A DNA stretch of 64,000 bases from Dokdonia sinensis (lineage in GTDB: Bacteria > Bacteroidota > Bacteroidia > Flavobacteriales > Flavobacteriaceae): contig NZ_REFV01000005.1 of assembly GCF_003688895.1 (NCBI RefSeq), forward strand, positions 124,001 to 188,000, written 5' to 3'. Each line of letters begins with the position of its first letter. Position 1 is the stretch's first letter. The notes beneath the pieces were generated by a model that saw only the letters and a list, made by a program, of their open reading frames with translations, ran no database searches and was not told the origin of the DNA. This document shows, in pieces, positions 7,969 to 63,077 of the stretch. The position numbers and the translations under genes are program-made.

Positions 7969-8663
7969 AACGGCTTATTATAATTCTTGTTCCGAGTGGT
8001 ATGCAGGTTGTCCTGACCCTTCGACAAGCTCAGGGCAGCGTTTTGGGACAGCTCGTTTTTATTTTTTTCTTGTTTGAGTTCTTCGGCTTTTAGCATCCAA
8101 TTTTTTGCGGAAGCGTGCCAATTCTCAATTTTGATTTTCCCGCCAATCTTCCAGCCGATAGATTGGTAGTGATTGAAGAATTTTTGCGCTTCGACTTCTG
8201 GCCACTCTTCTTTTTTAAAAAATTGTAGAACTTCAATTTCATTTTTAGGCTTGGGTAGTTTATAACTGTTTAGATTAGTTTGTATATGTTTATTATAACG
8301 TACCACTGCTTGTCCTTGATTTGGGACAGCTTGGTACACAGCTTGTTCCAATACTTGTCCAGAAGTTGTCCCGAATTTGAGCATCTTAATTTTTGACCCT
8401 TTAAATGGATTGTGTGATGGCTCATAGACCAAATATTTATAGTGATTTAACTCCTTAACACAACGGTGATAGGTAGATTTTGACCCAATCTTTGAGAGCT
8501 TCATCACATCTTCACGGTTGACGTGAAAGCTTTCGCGAAAGCGATGGTGATTCCAAAGCTGGAACAACGCCAGATATAAGCTGATGTGTGTAGGATTTAA
8601 CCGGCTATCTTCTTGGAATGCTTTGAAAACTGCGTTGAGGTGCTGGATGTAGTTGACTTCCAT
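7965..8663 (-). CDS. Replication-initiator-like (DnaD/HTH) protein (232 aa)
   Basis: The N-terminal 100 residues resemble a winged-helix domain (ISLYLALFQLWN, VMKLSKIGSKSTYHRCVKEL). Residues about 143-190 (FFNHYQSIGWKIGG...WHASAKNWM) match the end of DnaD/DnaB_2-type proteins. It precedes a DnaC-like loader, as in phage and plasmid initiator-loader pairs. Two repeat families are read through: FRESF from the palindrome at 8529-8542 and ALSLSKGQ from 8012-8033, the latter in the variable C-terminal tail. Confidence 0.7.
   Translation of the reverse strand: MEVNYIQHLNAVFKAFQEDSRLNPTHISLYLALFQLWNHHRFRESFHVNREDVMKLSKIGSKSTYHRCVKELNHYKYLVYEPSHNPFKGSKIKMLKFGTTSGQVLEQAVYQAVPNQGQAVVRYNKHIQTNLNSYKLPKPKNEIEVLQFFKKEEWPEVEAQKFFNHYQSIGWKIGGKIKIENWHASAKNWMLKAEELKQEKNKNELSQNAALSLSKGQDNLHTTRNKNYNKPL
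8012..8033. repeat. CTTCGACAAGCTCAG-type dispersed repeat
   Basis: CCCTTCGACAAGCTCAGGG-type sequence, a near-palindrome well known to recur in flavobacterial genomes (from memory). Here it is inside a gene and encodes ALSLSKG. Related copies are at 16410 and 41751. Confidence 0.55.
8529..8542. repeat. Palindrome copy 1 (TTTCGCGAAA core 8531-8540)
   Basis: GCTTTCGCGAAAGC inside the initiator-like gene, read as FRES. Confidence 0.9.
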
Positions 8664-8668
8664 TTCAT

Positions 8669-8947
8669 CTATTGAGAATTATCAATACGGTTCTCGAGAA
8701 TTACTTTGGTAATCTCATCGGCATCGTAGAAAATGATGCCACCAATTTTAGAATAGGGCAGGGTGCCGTTTATTCTCAAATTTTGAAGTGTTCCTGGGCT
8801 TACCTGTAGCAATTCCATAACCTCAGCTGACTTGAGATATTTCTTCTTTTTAGGTTGAACAGGTGTCTGAATAAGTTCTTTTAGGTCCTCGAGTAATTCC
8901 ATTTTGAATTCTCTTAGGTCATCTGATGTGATAATCGATGTGGGCAT
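8669..8947 (-). CDS. Excisionase-like MerR/HTH_17 DNA-binding protein (92 aa)
   Basis: Residues 40-88 (YLKSAEVMELLQVSPGTLQNL...) form an HTH_17-type winged helix typical of Xis and of DNA-binding proteins in Bacteroidota conjugative transposons; GTLPYSKIGGIIFYDADEI is the usual wing and end. The first 36 residues are acidic and helical. It starts the short run xis-initiator-DnaC with 5-bp spacing to the next gene. An intrinsic terminator and a palindrome lie upstream. Role in excision is inferred from family and place. Confidence 0.78.
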   Translation of the reverse strand: MPTSIITSDDLREFKMELLEDLKELIQTPVQPKKKKYLKSAEVMELLQVSPGTLQNLRINGTLPYSKIGGIIFYDADEITKVILENRIDNSQ

Positions 8948-10107: not shown

Positions 10108-12072
10108 CTATTCCCACTTCATTTTCTGTAATCGCACAGCATTCAGAATAGCAAGCAATGCGACGCCCACATCTGCAAAGACTGCTTCCCACATTGTGGC
10201 GAGACCTCCAGCGCCTAATATTAATACAATAACTTTCACGCCAAAGGCAAGTATGATATTTTGCCAAACAACCCGACGTGTAGAACGGCCTATTTTTATC
10301 GCTCTTGAGATTTTACTGGGTTGATCTGTTTGTATAATAACATCTGCGGTTTCAATAGCCACATCGCTACCAAGACCGCCCATCGCGATTCCTACATCAC
10401 TAGCCGCAAGTACAGGCGCATCATTAATACCATCACCTATAAAAGCCACCTTAGTATCTGGTTGCTGTTTTAATTTTTCCACCTCATTGAGTTTGTCTTC
10501 TGGAAGCATTCCACCTTTTGCCCAGTCGATGCCTAATTCTTTTGCTACTTCTTGAGTGATAGAATCCTTATCTCCAGAAAGCATAATAATCTTATCGATT
10601 CCTGCTGCCCGTATTTCTTTGATCGCTTGATGCGCATCGTCTTTCAATTCATCGGCGATTGTTACATAACCTGCAAATGCGCCATCTATGCCTACCATCA
10701 CTATAGACTCAACAATGTTATCGGTTGCTGCTGGAACTTCTATCTGATGTGCTGTCATCAATGCTTTGTTCCCAACTAAGACTGTTTTTCCATTTACGCT
10801 ACCTTTCAAACCTTTACCTGCAATTTCAGAAACGTCTGTAGCGTTATAATCTGCTCCTTCAGCTTTATATTCCATAATGGCTATTGCTATTGGATGCGTG
10901 GATTGCTCTTCCATTGCCATTAGGTATTTCATAAATTCTGCTTTCGCGAAAGCGGAACCAGTAACAATTTCTTTAATCTTAAATACTGCTTTAGTGACCG
11001 TTCCCGTCTTATCCATCACTACGGTATTAACTTGAGTCATTGCATCGAGAAAGGACGCACCCTTAAAAAGAATACCATTACGTGAAGCAGCTCCCAAACC
11101 ACCGAAATAACCTAGCGGTATCGAGATAACCAAAGCACAAGGACACGAAATCACGAGGAATATCAATGCACGATATAACCAATCTCTAAACACATAATCA
11201 TCTACAAAAAAGTAAGGAAGAAACGTCAGGCCGATGGCAAGGAATACAACGATAGGCGTATAAATCCGCGCAAATTTTCTAATGAACAATTCCGTTTTTG
11301 ATTTTCTAGCAGTTGCGTTTTGCACCATATCGAGAATACGTGCAATGGAACTGTCCTTAAATTCTTTTGTTGTTTCAACTTCAATAACTCCATCGAGATT
11401 AATACTTCCAGCAAAAACACTATCGCCTTTAGCAATTGTATCAGGCTTGCTTTCACCTGTCAAGGCCGCAGTATTAAAAGATCCCTTTTCAGAAAGCAGA
11501 ATACCATCTAGTGGGACTTTTTCGCCCACACGCACTTGTATCTTTTCGCCAATTTCAACTGTCTCGGGATTTACTGAAACATAATCGCCATCACGATAAA
11601 CTAATGCCTCATTTGGTCTTACATCGAGTAGGGCTTTTATATTTCCTTTTGCACGGTTAACAGCCGCATTCTGGAAGAGTTCGCCCACAGCATAAAACAG
11701 CATTACGGCTACCCCTTCTGGATATTCTCCAATCGCAAATGCACCCAAGGTGGCAATGGACATTAAGAAAAATTCTGTAAAGACGTCTCCACGCATAATA
11801 CTTTTCCAACCTTCTTTAATAACTGGAAAACCTACAGGTAAATAAGCAATGGTGTACCAAACAATCCGTACCCAACCTTTAAAGGCTGGAATGGCATCAA
11901 AATAATCAACAGCTATGCCTAGAATAAGCATTACAAAGCTTACTATCGCAGGGATGTACGTTTTAAATGCACTTCCATCTCCGTGATCGTGATTGTGACC
12001 ATCATCGTGAGAATGTTCGCCTTGATGTTCTTTTGGGTCTATGTCACGTAAGTTTACTTTTTTCTTTTTCAT
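10108..12072 (-). CDS. zntA: Zn/Cd/Pb-exporting P-type ATPase (654 aa)
   Basis: P1B ATPase of the inner membrane that pumps divalent soft metals out of the cytosol. Seen: His-rich N-terminal tail (about residues 14-33, many HDH/HNH) instead of an HMA domain; CPC metal-site helix (about 309), phosphorylation motif DKTGT (about 352), STHPIAIAI, and hinge GDGINDAPVLA (about 545). The CPC helix in SCPCALVIS plus the His-rich tail point to zinc/cadmium rather than copper; the Asp in the last membrane helix (FADVGVALL) also fits the P1B-2 class. Last gene of the zinc-type block. Carries palindrome copy 2 (SAFAKAEF). Confidence 0.9.
   Translation of the reverse strand: MKKKKVNLRDIDPKEHQGEHSHDDGHNHDHGDGSAFKTYIPAIVSFVMLILGIAVDYFDAIPAFKGWVRIVWYTIAYLPVGFPVIKEGWKSIMRGDVFTEFFLMSIATLGAFAIGEYPEGVAVMLFYAVGELFQNAAVNRAKGNIKALLDVRPNEALVYRDGDYVSVNPETVEIGEKIQVRVGEKVPLDGILLSEKGSFNTAALTGESKPDTIAKGDSVFAGSINLDGVIEVETTKEFKDSSIARILDMVQNATARKSKTELFIRKFARIYTPIVVFLAIGLTFLPYFFVDDYVFRDWLYRALIFLVISCPCALVISIPLGYFGGLGAASRNGILFKGASFLDAMTQVNTVVMDKTGTVTKAVFKIKEIVTGSAFAKAEFMKYLMAMEEQSTHPIAIAIMEYKAEGADYNATDVSEIAGKGLKGSVNGKTVLVGNKALMTAHQIEVPAATDNIVESIVMVGIDGAFAGYVTIADELKDDAHQAIKEIRAAGIDKIIMLSGDKDSITQEVAKELGIDWAKGGMLPEDKLNEVEKLKQQPDTKVAFIGDGINDAPVLAASDVGIAMGGLGSDVAIETADVIIQTDQPSKISRAIKIGRSTRRVVWQNIILAFGVKVIVLILGAGGLATMWEAVFADVGVALLAILNAVRLQKMKWE
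10940..10953. repeat. Palindrome copy 2 (core 10942-10951)
   Basis: GCTTTCGCGAAAGC in zntA, read as AFAKA. Confidence 0.9.
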
Positions 12073-12942: not shown

Positions 12943-13356
12943 TCAACTACTGCACTTTTCACAAACACCTGTCACAACAAGATTTACATCTTCGGCTACG
13001 TAGCCATCTGGAAGGTTGATGTGTGGTATTTTATGTTCTGTCAAGCAAACAGTTTCATCACAATTACTGCAATGAAAATGCAAGTGTAAATCTTGATCTA
13101 TCTCGCAATTGCAACCTGGCTCACAAAGTGCGTACTTATTGATTCCGGTACCATCTTCTATTTGGTGTACAATACCGTTCTCTTCAAAAGTTTTTAATGT
13201 TCTAAAGATGGTAGATCGTTCCGCTTTCGCGAAAGCGGTCTCTATATCAAGCAAAGCCAGTGCAATCTTTTGTTGAGCCAGATATTTGTAGATCAAAATG
13301 CGCATTGCGGTAGGACGCACCTTATGATCGCTCAATGTTTTTTCTATTTCAGTCAT
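12943..13356 (-). CDS. Fur-family transcriptional regulator (137 aa)
   Basis: Start taken at 13356 (MTEIEKTLSDHKVRPTAMR), the normal Fur N-terminus; a longer ORF exists. Winged helix with RSTIFRTLKTFEENGIVH (about 47-64), metal site HLHFHCSNCDETVC (about 92-105) and a final CEKC, i.e. two CxxC structural zinc pairs. The spacing fits Zur-like members better than true Fur, but this is uncertain. It overlaps the CDF gene by 8 bp. It probably controls the zinc-type block. Carries palindrome copy 3 in the HTH (ETAFAKAERS). Confidence 0.85.
   Translation of the reverse strand: MTEIEKTLSDHKVRPTAMRILIYKYLAQQKIALALLDIETAFAKAERSTIFRTLKTFEENGIVHQIEDGTGINKYALCEPGCNCEIDQDLHLHFHCSNCDETVCLTEHKIPHINLPDGYVAEDVNLVVTGVCEKCSS
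13221..13238. repeat. Palindrome copy 3 (18 bp, core 13225-13234)
   Basis: CCGCTTTCGCGAAAGCGG in the Fur-family gene, read as AFAKA. Confidence 0.9.
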
Positions 13357-15227: not shown

Positions 15228-18200
15228 TTAGTTTTGGAAATATTGTAAATCAAACAGGGCTTCTAAATATTTATCAAGTGCATCGAGCGCGTCCATTTCG
15301 GTCTGTATGGCATCACGTATTATTTGCGTGAATGCTGCATAATCCAGCGCTCCTTCTTTGTATGCCAGCAATGCACCTTTGCGCTGGTCTATGGCAAGTG
15401 GCAAAGCTTCGGTTTTATAGAAAAACCAGGTATCCCGCCATCGTGCATAATTTTGTTGTGCCTGTATGAATTGCGATTGTAGCTCACGCTGTTTAAAGGC
15501 TGCATTGGTTTCTGCAATCTGTGCATCGAGTTTAGCAGCCTTTGCACGACTACGGACAGGTCCAGAAAACAGTGGTATGGAAATCCCAGCTTGATAGGTA
15601 TAAAAACCACTATCGCCATTGACACGTTGCAGGCCACCTTGCAGATTAAACTGGGGCAGTAAATTTGCCCTTGCTGCGTCATAGCTTGCTTGTGCTTCGT
15701 CTATACGCTTTCGCGAAAGCGATAACTCAGGATGATCATTCAATGTATTATTAGACTCTAAAATTGAAATTTCACTAGCTCCCAATTCATCAGAAACGCC
15801 GTACATCGCATCTGGTGTCAACCAAAGGTTGAGCTTTTGCAAGGCGATGAAATAGTCTGTTTCTGCCTGCTGAAACTTATTGTTAATTTGTAGTGCTTGA
15901 TTGCGCGCAGCAGCATATTCCAGTCTTGAAATGGCTTCCACTTCATAATTGAGTTCTACAGATTGTGCAAACTGATCATAAATGCTGTCCAGTTCTCGGT
16001 ACAAAACAAACTTCTTCTTTGCCTGAAAAGCTTCTGACCAGGCCTTTTTGACTTCCCGTTCTATCTGGATTTCCGAAAGGTCAAGAGCTGTTTCGGCTAA
16101 CTGGATGCGTTGTTGTTGCAAACGTTTTTTAGCACCTATTCCCAGTAGATCAATATTCTGTTGACCGATACCTATCAAGGTATAAATACCCTGACCATCT
16201 GCCACTTCTTCGCCACCCGTAAAGATCTGTGTACTACCGAAGTCGTAGGCATTGCCTGAGAGTGCATTCTGTCTTTCGATTTCGAGCTGGCTTGCTTTGA
16301 GTACAGGATAATTTTCTTTGGCAATTTCTACAGCTCGTGATAATGTGATGGGCGTGATGCTGTCCTTAGCAATGAGATCTTGCACAGGTGCTTGTGATTG
16401 TTGCGCTCTCCCTTCGACTGCGCTCTGGGCAGGCGCGAAAGCGGTGCCACCTAACATAAAACCAACTATCAAAATCGTAGTCAAGCCTTGCGGATTAAAC
16501 GAACCAATCTTATTCTGCTCTTTGCGCTCGCGTCTCTTTTCTATAAAGGTATATAGTACGGGAAGCACGACCAACGTGAGCAGCGTAGCTGTAAGCATTC
16601 CACCGATAACTACCGTAGCGAGCGGCTGTTGGACTTCTGCACCGGCCGATGTGGAAAATGCCATAGGTAAAAAGCCGAAAATATCAGTGGTGGCCGTGAG
16701 CATAATGGGACGAATACGTTCTTTAGTCCCTTGAAATATTCTATCCTTTATACTTATCACACCTTCTTCTTTTAAGGAATTAAATCGGTTTATAAGTACC
16801 AGTCCGTTAAGAACTGCAACACCAAATAGCACAATAAAGCCGACACCTGCCGAAATACTAAATGGCATATCCCGCAACCATAGGGCAAACACACCACCGA
16901 TGGCCGCCAAGGGAATCGCTATGTAAATCATTAGCGATTGTGAAAAGGATTTTAAGGCAAAGTACAGCAGTATAAATATTAAAAACAGGGCGATGGGCAC
17001 AACGATTATCAAACGATCCTTTGCGCTTTGTAGATTTTCAAACTCACCACCATAGGTAATATAATAGCCTGATGGCAAGTCCAGTTCTTCATCTAATTTT
17101 TGCTGAATATCTTTTACTACAGACTCCACATCCCTGCCTCTTGCATTTACACCTACGTAGGTTCTTCTATACGTATTGTCACGTGAAATTTGCATAGGTC
17201 CAGGGACGTATTCAATTTCGGCTATTTCGATAATGGGTATCTGATTGCCATCCTTAAGATCGATATACATATTGCGTAGGTCATCGATACTTTTTCTATG
17301 GCTTTCATCAAATCGTACCACGAGATCAAATCGTTTCTCGCCTTCAAAAATTACTCCTGCGGTTCCCCCAGCGAATGCGGTACTTATGTAATCATTTACT
17401 TTTTGAATATCCAGTCCATATTGCGCCATTTTATCACGCTTATATTTTACGGTCATCTGTGGTAATCCTGCAGTTCGTTCTGCACTCACATCACCAGCGC
17501 CAGGAACGGTCTGTATAATCGCTGCCATTTCCTGAACCTTTTGTGATAACACCTCTAAATCTTCGCCATACAGCTTTACCGCAATATCTTCTCTTACACC
17601 TTCTAACAGCTCGTTAAATCGTAACTCTACTGGTTGTGTAAAGACTAAATTCACACCTACGAGTTCTTCATCTAATTTGTCTCTAATGGCATCTATCAAA
17701 CCTTCTTTAGTAGTAGCTGTTGTCCACTGGTCCATATTCTTGTTTAGGATGATGTACATATCTGCAATATCCATAGGCATAGGATCGGTAGGAATATCTG
17801 CAACACCTATACGAGCTGTGACTGTTTTAATTTCAGGGAAATTTTCTAATAGGATAGTTTCTATTTTCTTGGAAACTTCAATAGATTCGGATAATGAACT
17901 TCCTGGTCTAATGAGTGCTTGCATTGCTAGGTCTCCTTCATCAAGCTGGGGCACAAATTCTCCACCCATATTAGAAAAGATAAAACCAGCAATAAGAAGT
18001 AATACGGCAGCAGCTGATAAAACAATAAGTTTTAGTTTAAGGGCTCCCTTTAATAATGGCATATATGTACTATGAATAGCACCTATAATTTTATCACTTA
18101 TTTTTTCGAGCCAGCGCTCAAACCTGCCGAACCAGTTTTTGGTATTTTGTACTGGTTTCATAAAAAGCGCTGCCATCATAGGCACATACGTGAGACACAA

Positions 18201-20148: not shown

Positions 20149-21876
20149 TTACAACGAATCAATCACACTTCCGCAAGTCAACATTGCATCGCCATAGTAT
20201 GGATTTCTTATTTCTTCTTCCATACTTAGCCATACCGCACCTTTATTGTTATTTGCCATAGGGCATTTCTGAATGTAATAATTTATCGAGTTTTTTATGC
20301 TCATTGCAATAGGCACGATATTCTCGTTTAGAATGACGAAGTGAGCGCGCTGGTTTTCCAGATTATCATTGTTTGCAACGGCATCCAGCATCTCAATACT
20401 TTTGGTTAAGTGTTGTTTTTCCATCGTACTTAAATCATCAGTCGATATTGCTTTTAATTTTAATGATGTCGCTTTCGCGAAAGCGGAAACTTGACTTGCA
20501 TCGCTTGCTACAAGGGCATCTTTCATTTTGAGATATGATGGTAATGCTTTGTCGAAATCAGAACTAAACGCATTGCTGAAACTCATTTCCATATCGCCCA
20601 TCATTGCTGATTCGTCCTGCATCATTTGCTGATTCATCATTGATTTTTTACCCTGTAACTGTGCCGCTGCATCTACTGTAAATGTTCCATTGGTAACAAT
20701 TTCATCGCCATTATTTAATCCGGCCGATACTTGGTAAGTTTCGCCAGAGCGATTGCCCAAGGTTACTTCGTGCATTTCAAATACAGGCTCGTTAGGATTG
20801 GTTTTCACATATACCAATGAGCGCTCGCCCGTCCATAACACAGCACTTGCAGGCACGGTAAGGGTGTTTTCCATAGTTTGTGTTGCGCCTTTAACCTTAC
20901 CTGTAACAAACATTCCTGGTTTAAATAGGTCGTCTCTATTTTGAAGGGTTGCACGTACCGTTACCGTTCTTGTAGCATTATTTAAAATTGGGTCAATAAA
21001 TGAAATTGTTCCCTCAAATTCTTTATTTGGATAGGCATTGGTCGTGATGTTGATTTTTTGCCTAACGTTGAATAGCGCTATTTGATTTTCATAGGCATCA
21101 AATTCTGCCCAAACCGAATTGAGGTTGCTCAACTTCACAATAGGCTGTCCTTGATTTACATAATCGCCTTGTGCTGCCATTACTTCTGAAACCGTTCCGG
21201 AAACCGTTGCATAAATCGGGAAATTCTCTCGTACCGTTCCACTTTCTTCAATAGCATTGATTTGTGTATCTGAAAGTTTCCAGTTTTTGAGTTTATTGCG
21301 AACTGCTTTATACAAAGCGGGTTGCGATTCTTTCAACGATGCTGCGGTAATCAATTCCTGTTGTGCCGCTACAAGGTCTGGTGCGTAAATGGTTGCGAGC
21401 AGCTGACCACGATTTACTTGTTGACCTTCGTAGTTGACGTTGAGTCTTTCTATTCTTCCTTTGAAATAGCTGGCTTGCACAGTATTGTTTTCTTCATTAG
21501 CAGCTATTTTTCCAGAAAGGGATGTCATCCCATCATCATCGCTGGCTTCTGCATTGCCCACGATAGTGGTTTGAATATTTGCTAATGCCATAGCATTTTC
21601 GGTCATTTTTATCTCGTTTGCTGCGAGACCTTCAGCACCAGCTTCAGCAGGGATTAAGTCCATTCCACATATAGGACAATCACCAGCTTCGGGTTGCATT
21701 ATCTTTGGGTGCATCGAGCACGTCCACATCCGGTCTGCGCTCTCACCAGAGTGGTCGTGGTCTGACATTTCGGACATATCCTTATTTGAATCACTTGACC
21801 CATTTCCAAAAATGAGCCAGCCTGCGCCCAAACCTATGATTACGGCTATTGCTATATATAAAATGTTCTTATTCAT
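20149..21876 (-). CDS. cusB: CusB-like RND adaptor with heavy-metal-binding and DUF3347 domains (575 aa)
   Basis: Periplasmic adaptor of a copper/silver efflux pump. Order: N-terminal membrane anchor (about 5-25); HMBD zinc-ribbon-like segment WTCSMHPKIMQPEAGDCPICG (about 50-70, with MHP and CPICGMDL); adaptor barrel-sandwich and coiled coil (about 125-400); Met-rich link MMNQQMMQDESAMMGDMEM; and a C-terminal DUF3347 domain (about 438-575) ending in the CPMANNNKGAVWLS...EIRNPYYGDAMLTCG pattern shared with the gene at 27298. Its cusA and cusC partners lie 9-16 kb away. Carries palindrome copy 5 (VSAFAKA). Confidence 0.9.
   Translation of the reverse strand: MNKNILYIAIAVIIGLGAGWLIFGNGSSDSNKDMSEMSDHDHSGESADRMWTCSMHPKIMQPEAGDCPICGMDLIPAEAGAEGLAANEIKMTENAMALANIQTTIVGNAEASDDDGMTSLSGKIAANEENNTVQASYFKGRIERLNVNYEGQQVNRGQLLATIYAPDLVAAQQELITAASLKESQPALYKAVRNKLKNWKLSDTQINAIEESGTVRENFPIYATVSGTVSEVMAAQGDYVNQGQPIVKLSNLNSVWAEFDAYENQIALFNVRQKINITTNAYPNKEFEGTISFIDPILNNATRTVTVRATLQNRDDLFKPGMFVTGKVKGATQTMENTLTVPASAVLWTGERSLVYVKTNPNEPVFEMHEVTLGNRSGETYQVSAGLNNGDEIVTNGTFTVDAAAQLQGKKSMMNQQMMQDESAMMGDMEMSFSNAFSSDFDKALPSYLKMKDALVASDASQVSAFAKATSLKLKAISTDDLSTMEKQHLTKSIEMLDAVANNDNLENQRAHFVILNENIVPIAMSIKNSINYYIQKCPMANNNKGAVWLSMEEEIRNPYYGDAMLTCGSVIDSL
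20470..20485. repeat. Palindrome copy 5 (core 20473-20482)
   Basis: CGCTTTCGCGAAAGCG in cusB, read as AFAKA. Confidence 0.9.
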
Positions 21877-23710: not shown

Positions 23711-26212
23711 TTATATGTTTTTACTTTTTAGACGTAATGAGTTGGCAATTACCGATACCGAACTGAAGCTCATCGCCAAAGCCGCAATCATTGGCGATAA
23801 GAGTATTCCAAAAAACGGATACAGTAGTCCTGCTGCAATAGGGATACCCAGCGTGTTATAAATCATTGCAAAAAAGAGGTTTTGTTTGATATTGCGCATT
23901 ACTGCATCACTTAGGTTTCTTGCCTTTACGATTCCGTGTAAATCGCCTTTCACCAAGGTAATTGCTGCACTTTCAATGGCAACATCTGTTCCTGTACCCA
24001 TTGCGATACCTACGTCACTTTTTGCCAACGCTGGGGCATCGTTTATACCATCACCTGCCATTGCAACCACCTTGCCTTGTTCTTGTAATTTCTCGACTTC
24101 TTGTAATTTATTTTCCGGTAGCATACTTGCCTGAAAATCGGCGAGGTTAAGTTCGTCCGCGACAGCCTGTGCAGTATCGTGATTATCACCCGTAAGCATT
24201 ATGACTGCAATTCCCTTATCCTGCAAATCCTTTATAGCTTTTGCGCTCGTTTCCTTGATTTTATCACCTATGACCACGTAACCAGAAATTTTACCATCAA
24301 TGGCGAGATAGGAAACCGTCTTACCTTGCTTTTGATAAGATTGCGCTTCGTTTTCCATCACTTGAGTAAGTGTAGCATTCGCCTGTTCCATCATTTTGGC
24401 ATTTCCTAAAGCCACTTCTTTTCCGTTCACTTTCCCTTCAACACCTTTTCCAGTAACCGCACTAAAACTATCAGCTTTTAAAAATTCTGCGCTTTGTTCT
24501 TTTCCATATTTTACCGTTGCTTCCGCCAAAGGATGTTCACTTTGGCTATTAAGGGATACAATGTATTGTAGCACTTCGCTTTCGCGAAAGCTTTCATCAA
24601 AAGAAACCACTTTTTCAACTGTAGGTTTTCCTTCGGTAATAGTTCCAGTTTTATCCACGATTAAGGTATCAACCTTATCCATTTTTTCAAGTGCTTCGGC
24701 ATTTTTGATGAGCACACCATTTTGTGCGCCTTTGCCGACACCCACCATTACAGACATTGGTGTAGCAAGTCCCAAAGCACACGGACAGGCGATAATCAAT
24801 ACGGCGATTGCATTGACCAAGGCATAAACATAGGCTGGTTCTGGACCCCAAATTGCCCAAACGCCAAATGTAACAACAGCGATTATAACAACGATTGGCA
24901 CGAAATATCCCGAAACGGTATCGGCCAACTTTTGGATGGGTGCACGGCTTCGACTGGCATCGTTGACCATCTGTATTATCTGTGATAACAAGGTATCGGA
25001 ACCTACCTTTTCAGCTTTCATTAAAAAGGACTGATTGCCATTAATAGTTCCGCTACTTACTTTATCATCTACTGATTTGTTTACGGGAATGGGTTCACCA
25101 GTAATCATCGATTCGTCGATGGAAGTTTCACCTTCGGTAATCACGCCATCCACGGGAATCTTATCGCCCGGCTTCACACGTAGGATATCGCCCAATTCAA
25201 TTTCATCGATGGCCACTTCCTGTTCTTCCCCATCAACTACCTTTATAGCCTTGTTAGGTGCCAATTTTAAAAGTTCCTTGACTGCGGAATTGGTCTTGCT
25301 ATGCGCACGAGCTTCGAGGACTTGACCAAGTAGAACCAAAGTTAGAATCACCGTAGCAGCCTCAAAATAGACGTGAACCGTACCGGCTTCGGTCTTGAAT
25401 TGGTCAGGGAAAAAATCGGGTACGAGCATCCCGAACACGCTGAAGAGCCAAGCAACGCCAGCACCGATACCGATAAGCGTAAACATATTTAAGTTCCACG
25501 TCTTTATACTGCGGTAGGCACGGTCAAAGAACATCCAAGTAGCGTAGAATACCACAGGAATAGAAAGCGCAAATTGAATCCAGTTCCAATATTTTAATTC
25601 TAAAACATCATATAAGGGGTTGTTGGGCAGCATTTCGGACATTGCAATGATAAAAATGGGCAATGTGAAAGCGACCGCTATCCAGAACTTTTTAAGAAGT
25701 TTTTTATAGGTCTTTTCCTCTGCGGATAAATCGGGTTCCATAGGAACTAAATCCATTCCACAAATTGGACAGCTTCCCGGTTCGTCCTTAATAATTTCTG
25801 GGTGCATCGGGCAGGTATATTGGGTGTCGGAAGTAGCCGTTAGGTTAACTTCTTCAACCAAATCCATTCCGCAAACAGGACAGTCGCCTGGTTTGTCGTA
25901 AGTCTTGTCGCCCTCGCAATGCATCGGACAGTAAAATGTTCCCGTTCCTTGACTTTTGGGTTTCTCAACTTTCTTCTTATCGTGGGTATGCTGCTGTTCG
26001 CCATTTTGATGGATACTGTATTGCCCACCATCCGCTTTTAGAGCCTCTTGAAATTTTTCGATGGGAATATGTGCTTGCATTTCGATGGTCACTTCGGCTT
26101 TTTCTAAATTGACAGATGCATTAGTTACACCTTCTATTTTGGAAAGCGTCTGTTCGACGTGGTTTCGGCAACCGTTACAGGTCATTCCGTGTATGTGATA
26201 GGTGTGTGTCAT
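23711..26212 (-). CDS. copA: Copper-exporting P1B-type ATPase (833 aa)
   Basis: Inner-membrane Cu(I) pump. N-terminal HMA domain with GMTCNGC (about 9-15); two HMBD knuckles, YCPMHCEG...GDCPVCGMDL (about 93-118) and YTCPMHPE...GSCPICGMDL (about 132-157); eight membrane helices; CPC in IIACPCALGLATP (about 476), DKTGTITEG (about 520), SEHPLAEA, and GDGINDAPALAKS (about 720). The class P1B-1 pattern supports copper/silver. Two HMBD units in one chain are common in Bacteroidota. Carries palindrome copy 6 (SFRESEV) in the ATP-binding domain. Confidence 0.94.
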   Translation of the reverse strand: MTHTYHIHGMTCNGCRNHVEQTLSKIEGVTNASVNLEKAEVTIEMQAHIPIEKFQEALKADGGQYSIHQNGEQQHTHDKKKVEKPKSQGTGTFYCPMHCEGDKTYDKPGDCPVCGMDLVEEVNLTATSDTQYTCPMHPEIIKDEPGSCPICGMDLVPMEPDLSAEEKTYKKLLKKFWIAVAFTLPIFIIAMSEMLPNNPLYDVLELKYWNWIQFALSIPVVFYATWMFFDRAYRSIKTWNLNMFTLIGIGAGVAWLFSVFGMLVPDFFPDQFKTEAGTVHVYFEAATVILTLVLLGQVLEARAHSKTNSAVKELLKLAPNKAIKVVDGEEQEVAIDEIELGDILRVKPGDKIPVDGVITEGETSIDESMITGEPIPVNKSVDDKVSSGTINGNQSFLMKAEKVGSDTLLSQIIQMVNDASRSRAPIQKLADTVSGYFVPIVVIIAVVTFGVWAIWGPEPAYVYALVNAIAVLIIACPCALGLATPMSVMVGVGKGAQNGVLIKNAEALEKMDKVDTLIVDKTGTITEGKPTVEKVVSFDESFRESEVLQYIVSLNSQSEHPLAEATVKYGKEQSAEFLKADSFSAVTGKGVEGKVNGKEVALGNAKMMEQANATLTQVMENEAQSYQKQGKTVSYLAIDGKISGYVVIGDKIKETSAKAIKDLQDKGIAVIMLTGDNHDTAQAVADELNLADFQASMLPENKLQEVEKLQEQGKVVAMAGDGINDAPALAKSDVGIAMGTGTDVAIESAAITLVKGDLHGIVKARNLSDAVMRNIKQNLFFAMIYNTLGIPIAAGLLYPFFGILLSPMIAALAMSFSSVSVIANSLRLKSKNI
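24578..24591. repeat. Palindrome copy 6 (core 24580-24589)
   Basis: GCTTTCGCGAAAGC in the copper ATPase gene, read as FRES. Confidence 0.9.
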
Positions 26213-30976: not shown

Positions 30977-32194
30977 TTAATTGATTAAATAGTTAATAAT
31001 GGCCGATTGTACATAGTACATTTGCACCGACTCGATTTGATTCATTTGAAATTTTAATTGCAGTTCCTGAATGTCCAGCACATCATTAAAATCGATGGTG
31101 CCTGTTTCATAATTTTTTACCAGAATTTCTTCGGCATCTTGCGCTTGCTTCAGGTTGCTGTCTTGGGTGTTATAAGCGATGCGGCCTTGGTTGCGTTGTG
31201 ATTGCGCTTTCGCGAAAGCGGATTCCAGCACATTCAATCGCTGTTCCCGTTGGGTTTCTATTTCTTGCTGACGCAACTCGTTTTGCCTTGAAATGGATTT
31301 ATAACGGTTGTTGAAAATGGGGATGGATACCGAAACCATTGGCATCAATACATCTTTCCCATTATCGCTAAAGTTCACATCGCTACGTTCCGTTACGGGC
31401 AAGTAATCCACACCAAAACCAATCATAGGCAAACTCTCACGCTGGTTGAGCAGTTCGGATTGTGCTACCGATTCATAGAGTTTGTCATATTTGAGCAGTT
31501 CAGGATTGAGTGATAGCGCATCATTAGAATAAAATGGGTCTTCCTGCGGGATTTCCATTTCTGGAACTACGTCAACCGTCATCATTGATTCACGGTTGAG
31601 CAAATTGTTAAAAGCTGTTTGTTCTGCCGTAAATTCTTCTTCCAGCACTTCCTTTTGTTGTTGTAATTCATTTTGCCGTATTTGAAGTCGCAACACATCT
31701 ACGGCACTCGCTTTACCTACTTCTACAGACGTGAGTGCAAGTTGCTCATAGGTTTGCAATAGCTGTATATTTTCATCCAGCACAGCTTGCTTGGCACGTA
31801 TAGAATACAGGCTATAATAGGATTGTGCGACCGAAAGTGCGAGCTTGCGCTTTGCAATCGTGATGTCCACATATTCAGCATCTGCCATTGCGGTGGCATA
31901 ATTTTCACGAGCTGTAATAGTACCAAACCACGGCAACATCTGTTTTACACCTATCCGTGCACGTTGTGCGCCCACTCTGGTTTCTGGCTCGCTCACAAAG
32001 TAGCCGGCACTTACTTCGGTATTGGGAATCCAGTTGGCTTCGTTTACCTTTTCTTCGGCGATATTATAGCGCAGTTCAAAAGCTTGAATTTCTGGATTGT
32101 TGGCTTCAGCTTCTTGGATGTAGGATTGTAGCTGTTGCGCTTTCGCGAAAGCGGAAACAAACAAAAACACGAGTATATATTTTAATTTTTTCAT
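30977..32194 (-). CDS. cusC: TolC-family outer membrane channel, CusC-like (405 aa)
   Basis: Signal peptide MKKLKYILVFLFVSAFAKAQ, then the TolC repeat with coiled coils (about 100-200 and 295-370) and the common LNPELLKYDKLY and GTIDFNDVLDIQELQ motifs. It provides the exit duct for cusA; the two genes overlap by 4 bp (ATGA). Two palindrome copies lie in this one gene, one in the signal peptide (AFAKAQ, 32138) and one in the coiled coil (SAFAKAQ, 31205). Confidence 0.88.
   Translation of the reverse strand: MKKLKYILVFLFVSAFAKAQQLQSYIQEAEANNPEIQAFELRYNIAEEKVNEANWIPNTEVSAGYFVSEPETRVGAQRARIGVKQMLPWFGTITARENYATAMADAEYVDITIAKRKLALSVAQSYYSLYSIRAKQAVLDENIQLLQTYEQLALTSVEVGKASAVDVLRLQIRQNELQQQKEVLEEEFTAEQTAFNNLLNRESMMTVDVVPEMEIPQEDPFYSNDALSLNPELLKYDKLYESVAQSELLNQRESLPMIGFGVDYLPVTERSDVNFSDNGKDVLMPMVSVSIPIFNNRYKSISRQNELRQQEIETQREQRLNVLESAFAKAQSQRNQGRIAYNTQDSNLKQAQDAEEILVKNYETGTIDFNDVLDIQELQLKFQMNQIESVQMYYVQSAIINYLIN
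31205..31220. repeat. Palindrome copy 7 (core 31208-31217)
   Basis: CGCTTTCGCGAAAGCG in cusC, read as AFAKA. Confidence 0.9.
32138..32153. repeat. Palindrome copy 8 (core 32141-32150)
   Basis: CGCTTTCGCGAAAGCG coding for the end of the cusC signal peptide (SAFAKAQ). Confidence 0.9.
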
Positions 32195-38037: not shown

Positions 38038-38054
38038 GTGACCTCGACAGGATT
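38038..38054 (+). repeat. attR core (tRNA-Arg 3' end)
   Basis: Identical to 1005-1021. Covers the acceptor 3' strand and half of the T-arm. Confidence 0.88.
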
Positions 38055-41734: not shown

Positions 41735-41744
41735 TTTCGCGAAA
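41735..41744. repeat. Palindrome copy 11, core only
   Basis: TTTCGCGAAA between genes; flanks no longer symmetric. Confidence 0.7.
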
Positions 41745-42189: not shown

Positions 42190-42199
42190 TTTCGCGAAA
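42190..42199. repeat. Palindrome copy 12
   Basis: CGCTTTCGCGAAAATA: left half complete, right flank degenerate; intergenic. Confidence 0.8.
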
Positions 42200-43677: not shown

Positions 43678-46473
43678 TTATTGATCTCCCGTATAGCCTA
43701 ACCAGACTGTTGTGATGGGATCCTTCTTATTTCCAAAAGTTGACGAGGTTCTATTGCCAGATCGACCTATCAGTAACAGAGTGATTTGAGTGATTTCTCC
43801 ATTTGGGTTCCGTTCAATAGTCGTTTTTTGAACGGTAATGCCTTCTTTTTGAAAAGTTGCTTTTATATTATCGATATCTTGATCTGTGGCGTCTTTGTCA
43901 ATTTTGGCTTGTGTAACTCCGCCAAAGTTTGCATTACTTTTTATTCCCGTGTCGCCTTGAACTAAAAATAATTTTTGACCACTCACATCTACCGCAAATT
44001 TGTTATTACTGGGTTTTAGTTTCTTTATTGTAGCATATTTAGGGTTGCTCTTTGTGGTAATTTCAATCGCACCATACTTTGCAGTTTCTCCATAGGCTAC
44101 AAGTGCTTTTTCTCCTTTTAGGATATTCATATGCCCTATATGATCAGGATCAAGCGTATTCATAGCATCATATGATATGACTTCGCCGTCTAGGATAACT
44201 AGTGGTTTTGTAGAATTGTCTAATTTTCCAAATTCCGACAACTTTAGTTTAGGTTTTTCTTGAGAGAATAATCTTTTACTTCCTATTTTATCATTACTGT
44301 CCTTATCAGTTTGTGCGCGACCATAAACTCTCCGTTCTGCTCGTTTTTCTTTCATTTCGTTCATTCTGGCTTCCATCTGAGCTTTGCGTTCTTCTATTTG
44401 AGTTTGCATTTGTTCCCTGCGCTCCTGTGACTGGACTTCCATCTGCGTGCGTCGCTCTTCCATTCTAGCTTTCATTTCCACCATACGTTCTTCCATTTCG
44501 GCGCGGGAACTAGCGTTACCCATTCCTGTGCGACCATCTGCATCACGGTAAATGAAGATATCGCTTATAGGAGAATCACTACTCGTGCTGTAATTCTTAC
44601 TGTTACCATTTGCATCTTTAAAAGTGAGTTGAATACTCGTGATTTCATTTTGCGCGTTAAAATCCACATTTTTAAAATCTAATGTTGCGTTGTGCTTTTC
44701 TTTGAGCATTTGTTTTAATGCTTTGAGCTCTTCGATTGTTGTTTTTTTTGTGATTTTAAAGCGGTAGGTGTCTTGTGGCATATTCACATCAAATTCAATT
44801 GCTGTGGGTGTGGTAGTATCATTTGCTGGGAATTTTACTGCTTTATCTAGAAAGACAAGTTTTTCGGCATCTATTTTAAATGACTGACCTATCTTACCTT
44901 TTTCAATAACCACGATTTCTTGAGCTGGTGTAATTTTTATTTCATATCCATCCCAATCAGTAGGTAAGTCACTATTCCTGTCAAAACGAGTAAAAAATCT
45001 AGATTGTCCTGTGAATTTTGTTTGAAACGCAAATCGTTGTAGTTTACCGTCAGTTGCAAATTTGCGGTTGCTAAATCTAAATGTAGATTCCGGATATTTT
45101 TGAGCTACTATTTTCTCTATACGGTCTAATTCTGAAGCGGTGCTTGTGGAGTTTATACCAAAAATGTTCTGAATGCTAGTGGAGGTTTTGCCTCTATTCA
45201 CTGTACCATCTTTGTCAATACTAAAAGTATCAACTGTTGCAATTTGTGTGGTGACCGTAGCCTTAAGGGTTTCCTTATCAAAAGTGAGTGTAGCGTCTTC
45301 AATTCCTTTTCCCACAACTTTTTCTTTAAGGGTGTGCCTTGTTTGTTCACCACTTCCCGCAGGATGCGTGATCACATACATAGAAGCAATTGTTCCATTC
45401 TCGTTTCTTACAACCTCTCCATAAGTAAAGACGATTCCTTTGGTAAAAAGGTCTACGGTGACGTTGTTGAAATCATCAAGAACAAAGTCTTTCTTGATGG
45501 TTACATTTAAGGTGTTTAGAGGGGTTTCCGCTACTTCGGCTCCGCTCAGCACAGGTTTCGCGAAAGCGTAATTATCCCCATCCACTTCTTCAAATTGTAC
45601 TACTTCTTTCGTGTGAAAGGAATACATAAATAGTGCGAGTGCGGGAAGGATGAGTCCCAGTTTCAAAAGGTTGCGTCGTTGTGACGCGGGTTTGTTGAGC
45701 ATAACGATTCGTTTTTTGATGAATGAATGATAAAAATTAGTAGTAAGTGCTGGTCTGTATGAGGTTGATGAGACCTTGACCAGTGTGCGTTGATATTTTT
45801 TGTGTGACTGCGCTTGCTGGGCGGCAGTACTATCGGCTATATATTCTAGATTTTGCTCGATGCTGTTTTTGTAAAGCCAGGCGATGGGATTGCACCATTG
45901 CAATGCAAGTGCAACTTGAGTGAGCAATACATCTATGGAATGCAGTTGGCTAGCGTGTACTTGCTCGTGTGCAAGAATCATTTCTTGATCTTCTTGAGAA
46001 TGTAACTGCGGGTTGTAAACGATATACTTAAAGAAAGAAAAAGGGGTAATATCCTGATCAACGGCGATATAGGTAAACCTATTTCTTGCAACAACAGTTC
46101 CTGATTTAATGAGGCGTTGCAGTGAGAAGAGTTGTATAAAAAAGCGTGTAATCATAACGGAAACACCTATACAGTAAATAACAAAAAGTACTTGGAACCA
46201 ATCGATGGTAAATTGTGCCTCAGCAGGAGTCATTGTCTCCCATTGTGCGCTGTCAAAGTTGTTTATAAATGGAAGTTCTTCTACCACGGGAGCGGGGACA
46301 TAAGTGATGGTTTCAAATTCCAAGAAGGGTAGGAGAATAGCAGCAAGAATTCCTCCTATGAGATAATGCCTATTTGCAGTAAAAAATGTGTCCCGTCGCA
46401 ATACAATCATGTAGATGACATAAAAAATACCTAAGATCGCAATGCTTTTTATGATGTAGGTTAGTGTTTCCAT
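43678..46473 (-). CDS. M56 BlaR1-like membrane metallopeptidase with long C-terminus (931 aa)
   Basis: N-terminus with four membrane helices and the cytosolic zinc motif AHEQVHASQLHS (about 165-176). Known: BlaR1/MecR1 proteases signal to the BlaI repressor. The sensor part is not a penicillin-binding fold: there are beta-rich repeats (about 260-640), a long charged coiled coil with EERMVEMKARMEERR (about 655-720), then LVILDGEVISYDAMNTLDPD...GAIEITTKS (about 745-815), which reads like a TonB-receptor plug strand. No beta-lactamase gene is nearby. Palindrome copy 13 encodes YAFAKPV. Confidence 0.85.
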   Translation of the reverse strand: METLTYIIKSIAILGIFYVIYMIVLRRDTFFTANRHYLIGGILAAILLPFLEFETITYVPAPVVEELPFINNFDSAQWETMTPAEAQFTIDWFQVLFVIYCIGVSVMITRFFIQLFSLQRLIKSGTVVARNRFTYIAVDQDITPFSFFKYIVYNPQLHSQEDQEMILAHEQVHASQLHSIDVLLTQVALALQWCNPIAWLYKNSIEQNLEYIADSTAAQQAQSHKKYQRTLVKVSSTSYRPALTTNFYHSFIKKRIVMLNKPASQRRNLLKLGLILPALALFMYSFHTKEVVQFEEVDGDNYAFAKPVLSGAEVAETPLNTLNVTIKKDFVLDDFNNVTVDLFTKGIVFTYGEVVRNENGTIASMYVITHPAGSGEQTRHTLKEKVVGKGIEDATLTFDKETLKATVTTQIATVDTFSIDKDGTVNRGKTSTSIQNIFGINSTSTASELDRIEKIVAQKYPESTFRFSNRKFATDGKLQRFAFQTKFTGQSRFFTRFDRNSDLPTDWDGYEIKITPAQEIVVIEKGKIGQSFKIDAEKLVFLDKAVKFPANDTTTPTAIEFDVNMPQDTYRFKITKKTTIEELKALKQMLKEKHNATLDFKNVDFNAQNEITSIQLTFKDANGNSKNYSTSSDSPISDIFIYRDADGRTGMGNASSRAEMEERMVEMKARMEERRTQMEVQSQERREQMQTQIEERKAQMEARMNEMKEKRAERRVYGRAQTDKDSNDKIGSKRLFSQEKPKLKLSEFGKLDNSTKPLVILDGEVISYDAMNTLDPDHIGHMNILKGEKALVAYGETAKYGAIEITTKSNPKYATIKKLKPSNNKFAVDVSGQKLFLVQGDTGIKSNANFGGVTQAKIDKDATDQDIDNIKATFQKEGITVQKTTIERNPNGEITQITLLLIGRSGNRTSSTFGNKKDPITTVWLGYTGDQ
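45556..45565. repeat. Palindrome copy 13
   Basis: GGTTTCGCGAAAGCG: core plus one half; inside the BlaR1-like gene, read as AFAKP. Confidence 0.85.
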
Positions 46474-53881: not shown

Positions 53882-55159
53882 TTGCAAGAAGATTTTTTAC
53901 ATTACGTATGGAAGTTTAAGAAGTACGCTTTCGCGAAAGCGCACACTACCTCAAATCTCCCCATCACCCTCGTACAAGTAGGTCATCACAACACCCTCGC
54001 TGGCCCCGATTTCTTTAACGCAAAACTGCATATCGCAGACCAGCTATGGGCTGGAAACGTAGAAATACACTTGAAATCATCAGACTGGTATGCCCACCGT
54101 CACGAGGAAGACCCAGCCTATGAAAATGTTATCCTGCACGTGGTCTGGGAGCACGATGTGGACGTTTTCCGAAAGGACAACACGCCCATTCCCACATTAG
54201 AATTGAAACATTTTGTTTCCAAAGAAGCGCTACATAACTATCAAGAACTTTTTGCAAACCAAAAGTCAAAATGGATTAACTGCGAGGAAGATCTTGCTCA
54301 AGTTCCTTCATATACTCAAGAAAATTGGCTAGAACGACTCTATTTTGAAAGACTCAGCAGGAAAACAGAGCATATTAAAACTATTTTAGAATCTTTAAAT
54401 AATGATTGGGAGGCCACGCTTTTTACAATGCTTGCGCGCAATTTTGGCACCAAAGTAAACGGCGCCTCCTTTGAGAGCATTGCTCAAAGTTTAAATTTTT
54501 CCATCGTGAGAAAATGTGCAAATGAGCCTTTCCGTCTGGAAGCATTACTTTTTGGATTGGGTGGACTGCTTCCCGAAGACACAACAGACTCCTACGCCTT
54601 ACAGTTAGAAACCGAATATGAGTTTCTAAAGCATAAACACAATCTCAATAACGGCGGAGTAATGCCCGTTCAATTTTTTAAACTGAGACCTGATAATTTT
54701 CCGACCATAAGATTGTCACAATTGGCTCAGTTGTATTTCACTCATAGCTATCTGTTCCAGAAACTAATGACCACTTCATCGGTGAAGGAAATTTATGAGC
54801 TGTTTGCAGTTCAAGCATCGCCCTACTTTGACACGCATTTCTCATTTGGAACACAGCAGAAGAAGAGAGCAAAGAAGCTTACAAAATCATTTATTGACCT
54901 TATCATCATTAACACAATTATTCCTTTGCGGTTTTACTACGCACAACATCAAGGCAAGGATGAAAACGAGCTCATTCTGGAAATGATTCAATCTATAAAA
55001 CCAGAGCAAAATACGATTATTAAGAAATTCAACACGTTGCGACCTAAAGCCACAAATGCTCAAGAAACTCAAGCGCTTATTGAGTTAAAGGCTAATTATT
55101 GCGATCCAAATCGATGTTTGCAATGTGGGATCGGGAACTGGTTGTTAGGGCGCAATTAA
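53882..55159 (+). CDS. DUF2851 family protein (425 aa)
   Basis: The start is probably TTG at 53882 (MQEDFLHYVWKFKK), because family members begin with the same EDFLHYLW segment and no ATG lies nearby. Motifs: GPDFFNAKLHI (about 41-51), GNVEIHLKSSDW and HVVWEHD (about 61-92), and a C-terminal CDPNRCLQCGIGNWLLG with a Cys triplet. Cytosolic, widespread in Bacteroidota, function unknown. Its end overlaps the convergent M23 gene by 4 bp. Palindrome copy 14 encodes YAFAKAH right behind the start region. Confidence 0.88.
   Translation: MQEDFLHYVWKFKKYAFAKAHTTSNLPITLVQVGHHNTLAGPDFFNAKLHIADQLWAGNVEIHLKSSDWYAHRHEEDPAYENVILHVVWEHDVDVFRKDNTPIPTLELKHFVSKEALHNYQELFANQKSKWINCEEDLAQVPSYTQENWLERLYFERLSRKTEHIKTILESLNNDWEATLFTMLARNFGTKVNGASFESIAQSLNFSIVRKCANEPFRLEALLFGLGGLLPEDTTDSYALQLETEYEFLKHKHNLNNGGVMPVQFFKLRPDNFPTIRLSQLAQLYFTHSYLFQKLMTTSSVKEIYELFAVQASPYFDTHFSFGTQQKKRAKKLTKSFIDLIIINTIIPLRFYYAQHQGKDENELILEMIQSIKPEQNTIIKKFNTLRPKATNAQETQALIELKANYCDPNRCLQCGIGNWLLGRN
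53926..53941. repeat. Palindrome copy 14 (core 53929-53938)
   Basis: CGCTTTCGCGAAAGCG in the DUF2851 gene, read as AFAKA. Confidence 0.9.
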
Positions 55160-58198: not shown

Positions 58199-58208
58199 TT
58201 TCGCGAAA
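58199..58208. repeat. Palindrome copy 15 in the mutS2-ung divergent region
   Basis: CCGCTTTCGCGAAAAT; 12 bp upstream of the mutS2 start. Left half complete. Confidence 0.8.
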
Positions 58209-62127: not shown

Positions 62128-62189
62128 TATCGGGCTTTTGCGTCAAATCTACAAAAGCCCCACTACCTTTAAATTAAGCTTTTGTTAAA

Positions 62190-63077
62190 CTAATCTTGTA
62201 CGATTTTATTCAGCGCAAAGGCAATTAATTTTTCGGTTGTCTGAGTAGGTGAGGAGCTAAATTTCATCGTGGCTCTGTTTGCAAGAATTGCGTTTAAAGA
62301 AACGGCGCGATGGCCTAAGAGTTTGGCAAGTCCGTAGATGCCTGATGTTTCCATTTCTAAATTTGTGATGCGAATATTTTTTCCGCTTTCGCGAAAGCGG
62401 AATTCACCCATCTTCCTATTCATCATTGCATCACTAGTTTTTAACCGAAGTTTCCGTCCCTGAGGACCATAAAAACCGATGTTTGTCGCCGTAAATCCCT
62501 CAATCAACTCATCAGAAGTAAACTTAAGTGCAAGCGAACTATCACAACTCACCACATAAGGAGCACTTTTGTCCGAAGACCAATCCATTTGCTTTATGAA
62601 AGCTTCTTGAATTTCGGGATGTTGCACGTGCTTGCTGTCGTAAAAGTAAAGTAGCGCATCGAGTCCAATAGCATACCTACTAATCAAAAAGCTATCTATC
62701 GATATATCTTCTTGTATTGCGCCACTTGTACCAATGCGGATGATATCTAGGCTGGTGTGCTTTTCCTTAATCGTTCGAGTTTGTAAATCAATATTAACCA
62801 GCGCATCGAGTTCATTGAGTACAATGTCGATATTATCTGTACCAATTCCTGTTGAGATCACGGTGATTTCCTTGCCTTTGTAGGTTCCTGTGCTGGTTTT
62901 GAATTCGCGTTTTTGGGTTGTAAATCGTATGTTATCAAAATGCTTCGTAACCGAATCTACACGGTCCGGATCTCCTACGGTGATGATGGTCGTGGCAATG
63001 TCTTCGGGTTGCAAGTGCAAGTGATATACACTTCCATTAGGATTAAGTATAAGTTCTGAGGGTGCGATGGTCATCAT
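62190..63077 (-). CDS. Nucleoside phosphorylase (295 aa)
   Basis: Phosphorolysis of nucleosides for salvage. TVGDPDRVDSVTKHFD (about 33-48), GIGTDNIDIVLNEL (about 76-89), IRIGTSGAIQEDI (about 112-124) and NLEMETSGIYGLAKLLGH (about 238-255) are PNP/UDP-family motifs; the MET segment favours uridine phosphorylase-like members. The start overlaps the DUF1835 stop as TAATG. Palindrome copy 17 encodes FRFRESG. A second Met one codon later is an equal start. Confidence 0.9.
   Translation of the reverse strand: MMTIAPSELILNPNGSVYHLHLQPEDIATTIITVGDPDRVDSVTKHFDNIRFTTQKREFKTSTGTYKGKEITVISTGIGTDNIDIVLNELDALVNIDLQTRTIKEKHTSLDIIRIGTSGAIQEDISIDSFLISRYAIGLDALLYFYDSKHVQHPEIQEAFIKQMDWSSDKSAPYVVSCDSSLALKFTSDELIEGFTATNIGFYGPQGRKLRLKTSDAMMNRKMGEFRFRESGKNIRITNLEMETSGIYGLAKLLGHRAVSLNAILANRATMKFSSSPTQTTEKLIAFALNKIVQD
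62383..62400. repeat. Palindrome copy 17 (18 bp, core 62387-62396)
   Basis: CCGCTTTCGCGAAAGCGG in the phosphorylase gene, read as RFRES. Confidence 0.9.

Follow-up and report, generated by a model that had tools for sequence, protein, structure and literature searches.

A palindrome of 14-16 bp is repeated through the genome of Dokdonia sinensis (Flavobacteriaceae) at near-regular intervals, and in two of the three genera that carry it, it is flanked by tracts with a three-base rhythm locked to the palindrome. The element was followed up from a 64,000-nucleotide stretch of contig NZ_REFV01000005.1 (positions 124,001 to 188,000), which we call the window. Three forms of the motif are distinguished here: the core, which is the 10-mer TTTCGCGAAA; a near-invariant 14-mer, GCTTTCGCGAAAGC; and a full form, a 16-mer palindrome. 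We tentatively read the palindrome as a two-directional, Chi-like site for recombination or self-recognition, where a putative dimeric reader would lead to the loading of RecA on either side, and we give this reading a probability of about 0.38.

Abundance and distribution of the palindrome

The core occurs 17 times in the window, compared with a mean of 0.11 in dinucleotide shuffles, and none of 100 shuffles reached 17. A first-pass annotation of the sequence had listed 17 cores, all of which were found at their coordinates (17/17). Its statement that most copies extend to palindromes of 14-18 bp is borne out, since a perfect palindrome of at least 14 bp surrounds the core at 13 of the 17 sites (twelve of 14-18 bp and one of 22 bp), and the palindrome stops at 10 bp in the other four. 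The copies do lie in unrelated genes of both an island and the chromosome, as that annotation claimed, and they also fall between genes. A genome-wide count near expectation, which it had named as evidence against a special element, is not what the genome holds: in 3,647,482 bases on 43 contigs, the core is present 1107 times and its reversed-word control 15 times, while the 14-mer is present 857 times and its control not at all. The suggested resemblance to HIP1 in kind, with a likely role as a protein site, holds as far as a genome-wide iterated palindrome goes. In 400 kb of contig 1, 71 of 117 sites are inside called open reading frames (ORFs) and 46 are outside or only partly inside; as called ORFs fill 88.7% of that sequence, the sites are enriched outside coding DNA. 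An origin of the motif in chance, codon usage or base composition is virtually out of the question and was rejected on the shuffle test of the window and the genome count against the reversed control (1107 versus 15); the site-poor relatives and the non-random spacing described below speak against it as well.

The element is confined to a few lineages of marine flavobacteria. All 18 genomes of Dokdonia, our own included, contain 481-1195 cores (this genus is labelled g1; g11 and g210 are two other genera of the same family). Among 397 genomes from 237 genera of the family, six were high, namely G000 and G011 (g1), G027, G281 and G433 (g11), and G230 (g210), and the remaining 391 contained 0-34 cores. 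The 14-mer was found 0-19 times in fifteen of the richest site-poor family genomes, and in a phylum-wide search of 395 genomes our genome (857 copies) was the sole high one, the other 394 having 0-6. The loci around polyphosphate kinase repeat this pattern on a small scale: the two of Dokdonia contain 11 sites over 22 kb and 6 over 9.7 kb, and each locus of Leeuwenhoekiella (n = 8) and Salegentibacter (n = 8) contains 0 or 1. A five-gene tree places g210 together with Dokdonia (98/98) and g11 apart with weak support, and in a RecA tree ten motif-bearing genomes form one group with G184 (85/87). The genes behind the trees are ones that we take to be ParA, DapB, LepB, Kbl and others, names given partly on length and the look of the sequence. 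A single origin followed by losses, or two separate origins, are both possible histories on these trees. Among the papers listed, no report of the element was found in full-text searches for the core and four 10-mers, judged by title and the start of the abstract, or in topic searches; subscription journals were mostly outside their coverage.

Sites repel one another

Spacing, which the first-pass annotation had proposed as a check, turned out to be strict. One site per 3-5 kb is typical. The 117 sites in 400 kb of our contig 1 have a coefficient of variation (CV) of gap length of 0.58, compared with 0.99 (standard deviation 0.09) for random placement; none of 5000 simulations was as even, and only 3 of 116 gaps are shorter than 1 kb where 29 are expected. 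In G433 (g11), 86 sites in 400 kb give a CV of 0.45 versus 0.98 at random, with 1 of 85 gaps below 1.5 kb against 23.5 expected, and in G027 (g11) the CV is again 0.45, with no gaps below 1 kb against 5.5 expected. Repulsion is weaker in g210 (CV 0.76; 3 gaps below 1 kb versus 8.1 expected). Twenty 20-kb samples taken around the chromosome of G016, a single contig, contain 5-9 sites each (141 in total; variance/mean ~0.2), and no trend in site density is visible along these 20 samples, on which origin and terminus were not mapped. Rare close pairs occur despite the repulsion, at 386160/386207 of contig C1 in G000 (47 bp) and at 101679/101712 of contig C1 in G016 (33 bp).

Imperfect copies appear to take part in the same pattern. 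These were recognized by their scores in a weight matrix derived from a different genome, all of them above anything seen in the shuffled controls. In G433, 14 imperfect sites (score at least 18) fall in the gaps, at a median of 2434 bp from a perfect site compared with 1176 bp for random points; 7% are within 1 kb of a perfect site versus 43% at random, and the CV of the joint set is 0.41. The trend is weaker for 11 imperfect sites in our own genome (1374 versus 907 bp; 27% versus 54% within 1 kb; CV unchanged at 0.58), where the threshold also loses 20 of the 117 perfect sites. Repulsion of this kind is not a product of random mutation or composition. It could come from molecular drive, or from a requirement that each stretch of DNA contain a site. 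Regular spacing would equally follow from an architectural protein or from an uptake receptor. Spacing alone is thus undecisive, because Haemophilus uptake sequences are likewise relatively evenly spread under molecular drive (PMC7811141).

The palindrome appears to be a single unit with phased flanks

Short half-sites outside palindromes are present at the expected frequency in Dokdonia (GAAAGCG, 103 versus 113 expected; GAAAGCGT, 31 versus 30; GAAAGCGG, 19 versus 21), and GAAAGCG is not enriched in g11 (67 versus 63) or g210 (29 versus 42). Longer words across the centre are in excess outside palindromes (GCGAAAGCG, 14 versus 4.2 in Dokdonia, 14 versus 1.2 in g11 and 6 versus 2.0 in g210), and many of these words are visibly imperfect palindromes in their printed contexts. 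As only centre-spanning words are in excess, the palindrome looks like a single unit, of the kind that a dimer would bind on duplex DNA. Copies one mismatch away from the 16-mer mostly differ at its outermost base (18/25 in our genome, 4/7 in g11 and 12/12 in g210).

In Dokdonia and g11, a tract that runs from about -10 to -26 on each strand, 5' of the palindrome, is poor in C (mostly 0.02-0.13) and rich in G+T; the 3' flank is rich in A and C and has no T run. Left and right flanks of 134 sites show no base-by-base pairing beyond composition, so they are not hairpin arms, and an extended hairpin was rejected. Within the 5' tract, T recurs at every third base (-11, -14, -17 and -20), locked to the palindrome, and the rhythm is seen in intergenic sites alone: the odds ratio is 2.2 for 64 sites in Dokdonia (p = 2.8e-13) and 3.7 for 25 sites in g11 (p = 1.9e-13), with p values that take positions as independent. 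At genic sites, classed by reading frame and side, the rhythm stays locked to the palindrome in all 6 classes in g11 and in 5 of the 6 in Dokdonia. In-phase TTG and TGG both reach 5.0 times background in g11.

Sites in the window and their conservation

The sites of the window and the island that bears nine of them are as follows, given without strand; the strand of each gene is in brackets.
8529..8542: site 1, 14-bp perfect palindrome, within ORF 7965-8663 (-)
10940..10953: site 2, 14 bp, within the P-type ATPase gene 10108-12072 (-)
13221..13238: site 3, 18 bp, within the Fur-family gene 12943-13422 (-), an ORF skipped by the greedy ORF caller
15706..15721: site 4, 16 bp, within the efflux (AcrB/OEP) gene 15228-19673 (-)
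20470..20485: site 5, 16 bp, within the HlyD-type gene 20149-21876 (-)
24578..24591: site 6, 14 bp, within the metal P-type ATPase gene 23711-26212 (-)
31205..31220: site 7, 16 bp, within the outer membrane efflux gene 30977-32194 (-)
32138..32153: site 8, 16 bp, within the same gene 30977-32194 (-), 933 bp from site 7
34197..34210: site 9, 14 bp, within ORF 32191-35943 (-)
39227..39244: site 10, 18 bp, within the unconfirmed ORF 39133-39648 (+), ATG start
41735..41744: site 11, 10-bp core only, intergenic
42190..42199: site 12, 10-bp core plus one full half-site, intergenic
45556..45565: site 13, 10-bp core plus one full half-site, within the peptidase M56 gene 43678-46473 (-)
53926..53941: site 14, 16 bp, close to the start of the DUF2851 ORF 53882-55159 (+), TTG start
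58199..58208: site 15, core plus one full half-site, between divergent genes; core kept in Dokdonia loci L021 and L048
58750..58767: site 16, 18 bp, within the uracil-DNA glycosylase-family gene 58300-58965 (+); core kept in L021 and L048
62381..62402: site 17, 22 bp, within the phosphorylase-family gene 62190-63077 (-); core kept in L021
7373..36472: metal-resistance island, bearing sites 1-9 and adjoining the integrase gene 36553-37830 and tRNA-Arg 38038-38112

Sites are kept between Dokdonia species far better than the sequence around them. Over 57 kb aligned between our genome and stretches of G003, G006 and G016 (72.4% identity), ours retains 10 of the 11 sites found in the others, and 10 of our 14 are intact in them, compared with 6.5% of 7780 control 10-mers, although seeding of the alignment on the site may somewhat inflate this conservation. 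Near polyphosphate kinase, 3 of 3 alignable window sites are kept in L021 and 2 of 2 in L048, which has one extra. The sites even remodel proteins: at 62387, the window protein and that of L021 are four residues longer, around FRES, than all 18 other (non-Dokdonia) relatives aligned, and at 58754, the window protein, L021 and L048 have LSRK, at a place that is variable among 19 other relatives.

Phages and mobile islands carry the sites

Stretches of the island (within ~7.4-36.5 kb) recur with sites inside, at 65-88% identity, in G200, G141 and G029, genomes of three genera that are otherwise site-poor (9, 14 and 12 cores, respectively). The pair at 31208/32141 is found again in G200 and G141, its 933-bp distance unchanged. 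The motif may mark DNA that once lived in Dokdonia-like hosts. It also serves as a tracer of DNA passed through the site-rich genera, as islands in site-poor genera bear clusters of it. Small clusters are also present in the otherwise site-poor genomes G376 (contig 5, 46469-60943), G216 (C12), G082 (C2) and G359 (C3), and are possibly further transferred islands.

Among the IMG/VR matches listed, site-bearing contigs encode terminase, major head protein, portal, tape-measure-like or transposition genes. Eight pieces from five such phage contigs (82 kb) contain 13 sites, 11 of them the full 14-mer; the ratio is not a density, because the pieces were selected for holding a site. The T phase is retained in the phage sites, at 0.62 in phase versus 0.39 off phase (odds ratio 2.5, p = 2e-4, from rounded counts). 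Two IMG/VR contigs that bear the palindrome, L144 and L175, encode transposase-type phage proteins (PHROG 310; in L175 also 296) and are probably Mu-like. Four others (L135, L139, L153 and L177) have a common site with the same sequence on one side, adjoining the gene of a 211-aa protein; the L135 copy, the sole one scanned, has no PHROG match.

A possible site for symmetric recombination or self-recognition

Repulsion, the unit palindrome and triplet-phased flanks in two of three genera together point to a function needed per kilobase of resident DNA, a dimer that recognizes the duplex and, in those two genera, a neighbour that reads in steps of three bases and is fond of T and G. RecA is proposed as that neighbour because it handles DNA in triplets and its monomers dissociate most slowly from TGG repeats, CCA being the least stable (PMC3763553). 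The polarity also fits, with the GT-rich tract 5' of the site on both strands, which is the side where RecA would load. The palindrome and its two flanks would form one composite DNA site, near-regular in spacing as every few kilobases of resident DNA would need one. A putative dimeric protein would recognize the palindrome in duplex DNA. Processing of a DNA end, whether from a break or from incoming DNA, would proceed from either side as far as the site and halt there, and RecA would then be placed, in fixed register, on whichever strand has its GT-rich tract 5' of the site. The site would serve both as a start point of repair or recombination and as a mark of self. We favour such a symmetric Chi-like site; the phage sites and the triplet rhythm speak for DNA processing inside the cell.

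The candidate machinery was compared between 10 motif-bearing genomes (positives) and 22 motif-poor ones (negatives). An AddB-like PF12705 frame of ~900-940 aa is present in 32 of 32 genomes, and an AddA-like frame is beside it in 7 of the 10 positives; in G433, it is on another contig (35.6% over 1049 aa). The names AddA and AddB are inferred from domain, length and neighbourhood. In the AddB-like tree, all ten positives lie to the same side of a branch whose support is weak (65/96, 66% of bootstraps), and this neither proves nor excludes a linked change. Within Dokdonia, the AddAB-like proteins (L306-L311) are 47-53% identical compared with 86-93% for ParA/ParB, a sign of very fast evolution. 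RecA gives a single match in each of the 10 positives, and an extra RecA paralogue is thus rejected. Column 370 of the RecA alignment, in the C-terminal part, is H/M in 10 of 10 positives and K/R in 20 of 20 negatives, which may be phylogeny only. ParB has one match in nine positives and two in G011; an extra ParB as the reader is rejected, as no paralogue is common to the positives. Its helix-turn-helix has no residue peculiar to them either: at column 166, positives have N or S and 8 of 10 negatives have K, but the negatives G024 and G293 have N, so a changed recognition helix is likewise rejected. No parS-like core, TTTCACGTGAAA, turned up in ~1.76 Mb from five positives, in 1-400000 of our contig C1 or around parB, whether in positives or in the negatives examined (10 with 10.3 kb and 12 with 3.3 kb), which is uninformative. 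As none of the families compared tells positives and negatives apart, the reader is not shown to be among them.

Several observations weigh against a symmetric Chi-like site. The AddB-like protein is equally present in 22 of 22 negatives, and no AddA-like gene is beside addB in g11 (in G027 and G281, only the neighbourhood was searched; in G433, it is unlinked). No reader protein was found among the families compared. The short half-sites at expectation are unlike the Chi of AddAB, which is read on one strand. The T rhythm is missing from the left side of frame 0 in Dokdonia, where TGA leads the in-phase triplets (3.8), followed by TGG (2.5) and TTG (2.2), and no triplet phasing is seen in 34 genic sites of g210, in which four intergenic sites are too few to test. 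The GT-rich islands around Chi in Escherichia coli are reportedly ascribed to codon usage in two papers, going by their titles. RecA nucleation is not preferred on TG-rich or Chi DNA, where the one difference is slower dissociation (PMC3763553).

Alternative readings are improbable to different degrees. A nucleoid-organising site, at which a dimeric protein on ~1000 near-regular sites would fold the chromosome in units of ~3-5 kb, is unlikely but deserves attention: it agrees with a regular lattice that has no visible trend along the chromosome, half-sites at expectation and deep conservation, yet by itself it leaves the phage copies and the three-base rhythm unexplained, and the positives share neither an extra ParB/Noc-type protein nor a specific residue in the ParB helix. 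More doubtful is a DNA uptake sequence, where incoming DNA with the palindrome would be preferred and the motif spread by molecular drive. Haemophilus uptake sequences are spread relatively evenly, which drive would predict, and are under-represented in coding regions (PMC7811141); the even spread here and the 46 of 117 sites outside or partly outside ORFs match that pattern. A ComEC-like gene is found in 10 of 10 positives, but also in 21 of 22 negatives, and sites occur in phages. The pilus/secretion ATPase PF00437 is over the cut-off in only 2 of 10 positives (7 of 22 negatives) and was not found over it in the single-contig genomes G006, G016 and G230, which weakens the uptake signal of the first-pass annotation in the known pilus-driven sense. 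To our knowledge, the known uptake sequences are not palindromic, which counts further against uptake.

That annotation had also offered a methylation-guided site, and this suggestion loses ground too. An element like HIP1, made or kept by methylation-linked mismatch repair, would share with HIP1 an iterated palindrome confined to few lineages (PMC4390886). However, the methylase PF00145 is missing in 6 of 10 positives and PF01555 is over the cut-off in 2 and in none of the other 8; a shared methylase of either family (present in 4/10 and 2/10) is therefore rejected, PF02086 and type I methylases not having been tested. A mutational source predicts neither repulsion nor phased flanks, and we consider this origin very improbable. 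Still harder to credit is an RNA hairpin or terminator in transcripts. The palindrome could presumably fold and the sites are enriched between genes, but 71 of 117 are in ORFs, the flanks of the 134 sites do not pair beyond composition, and the AC-rich 3' flank has no T run. Overall, the earlier interpretation stands in part, as an iterated palindromic element that is probably a protein site, and of the roles it listed, segregation, nucleoid and repair functions may still apply; the strict spacing and triplet-phased flanks, which it did not include, change the picture.

Comparison with known systems

Why genomes fill with one short word, as with HIP1, Chi and uptake signal sequences (USS), is an old question. 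The sites of ParB and Noc (parS and the Noc-binding site, NBS) are palindromes built on TTTC/GAAA. Our element resembles them in this, but its half-site spacing is off by 2 bp and no extra ParB is common to the positives. The USS of Pasteurellaceae and the DNA uptake sequences (DUS) of Neisseriaceae are like it in copy number (hundreds to a thousand), in a core whose flanks are weaker, in a relatively even spread and in a lower frequency in coding DNA; it differs from them in being palindromic, in its presence in phages and in the lack of PF00437 over the cut-off in 8 of 10 positives. HIP1 of cyanobacteria is similarly a highly iterated palindrome, patchy by lineage. High frequency is expected there for the octamer GCGATCGC or another GC-rich palindrome, and here it belongs to a different, longer palindrome, which is also sparser than HIP1. 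A methyltransferase for the HIP1 sequence is present wherever that sequence is frequent (PMC4390886); here, no PF00145 or PF01555 methylase is common to the positives, and the spacing is repulsive and the flanks are phased.

Chi sites are short and one-sided and are recognized on a single strand. The likeness to Chi of RecBCD/AddAB (in part PMC3763553) lies in one site per few kilobases, presence in host and phages and GT-rich DNA on the 5' side suited to RecA, and an AddAB-type enzyme is present (AddB-like in 32/32). The differences are a 14-16 bp palindrome, strict spacing and a short half that is not enriched alone, and on the last point a half-site Chi is rejected. It is conceivable, though doubtful, that the element represents a new kind of genome-wide DNA lattice, in which a palindrome read by a dimer and register-locked triplet tracts on both strands would seat a RecA-type filament for symmetric recombination or self-recognition distinct from Chi, USS and HIP1. 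If so, few stretches of the chromosome, resident phages and islands would be without a site, and the lattice would be kept by strong selection in 3 of the 237 sampled genera of the family. The spacing rule, the unit palindrome, the triplet-phased flanks and the sharp presence or absence by genus make the old question testable, and the pattern asks for a reader protein.

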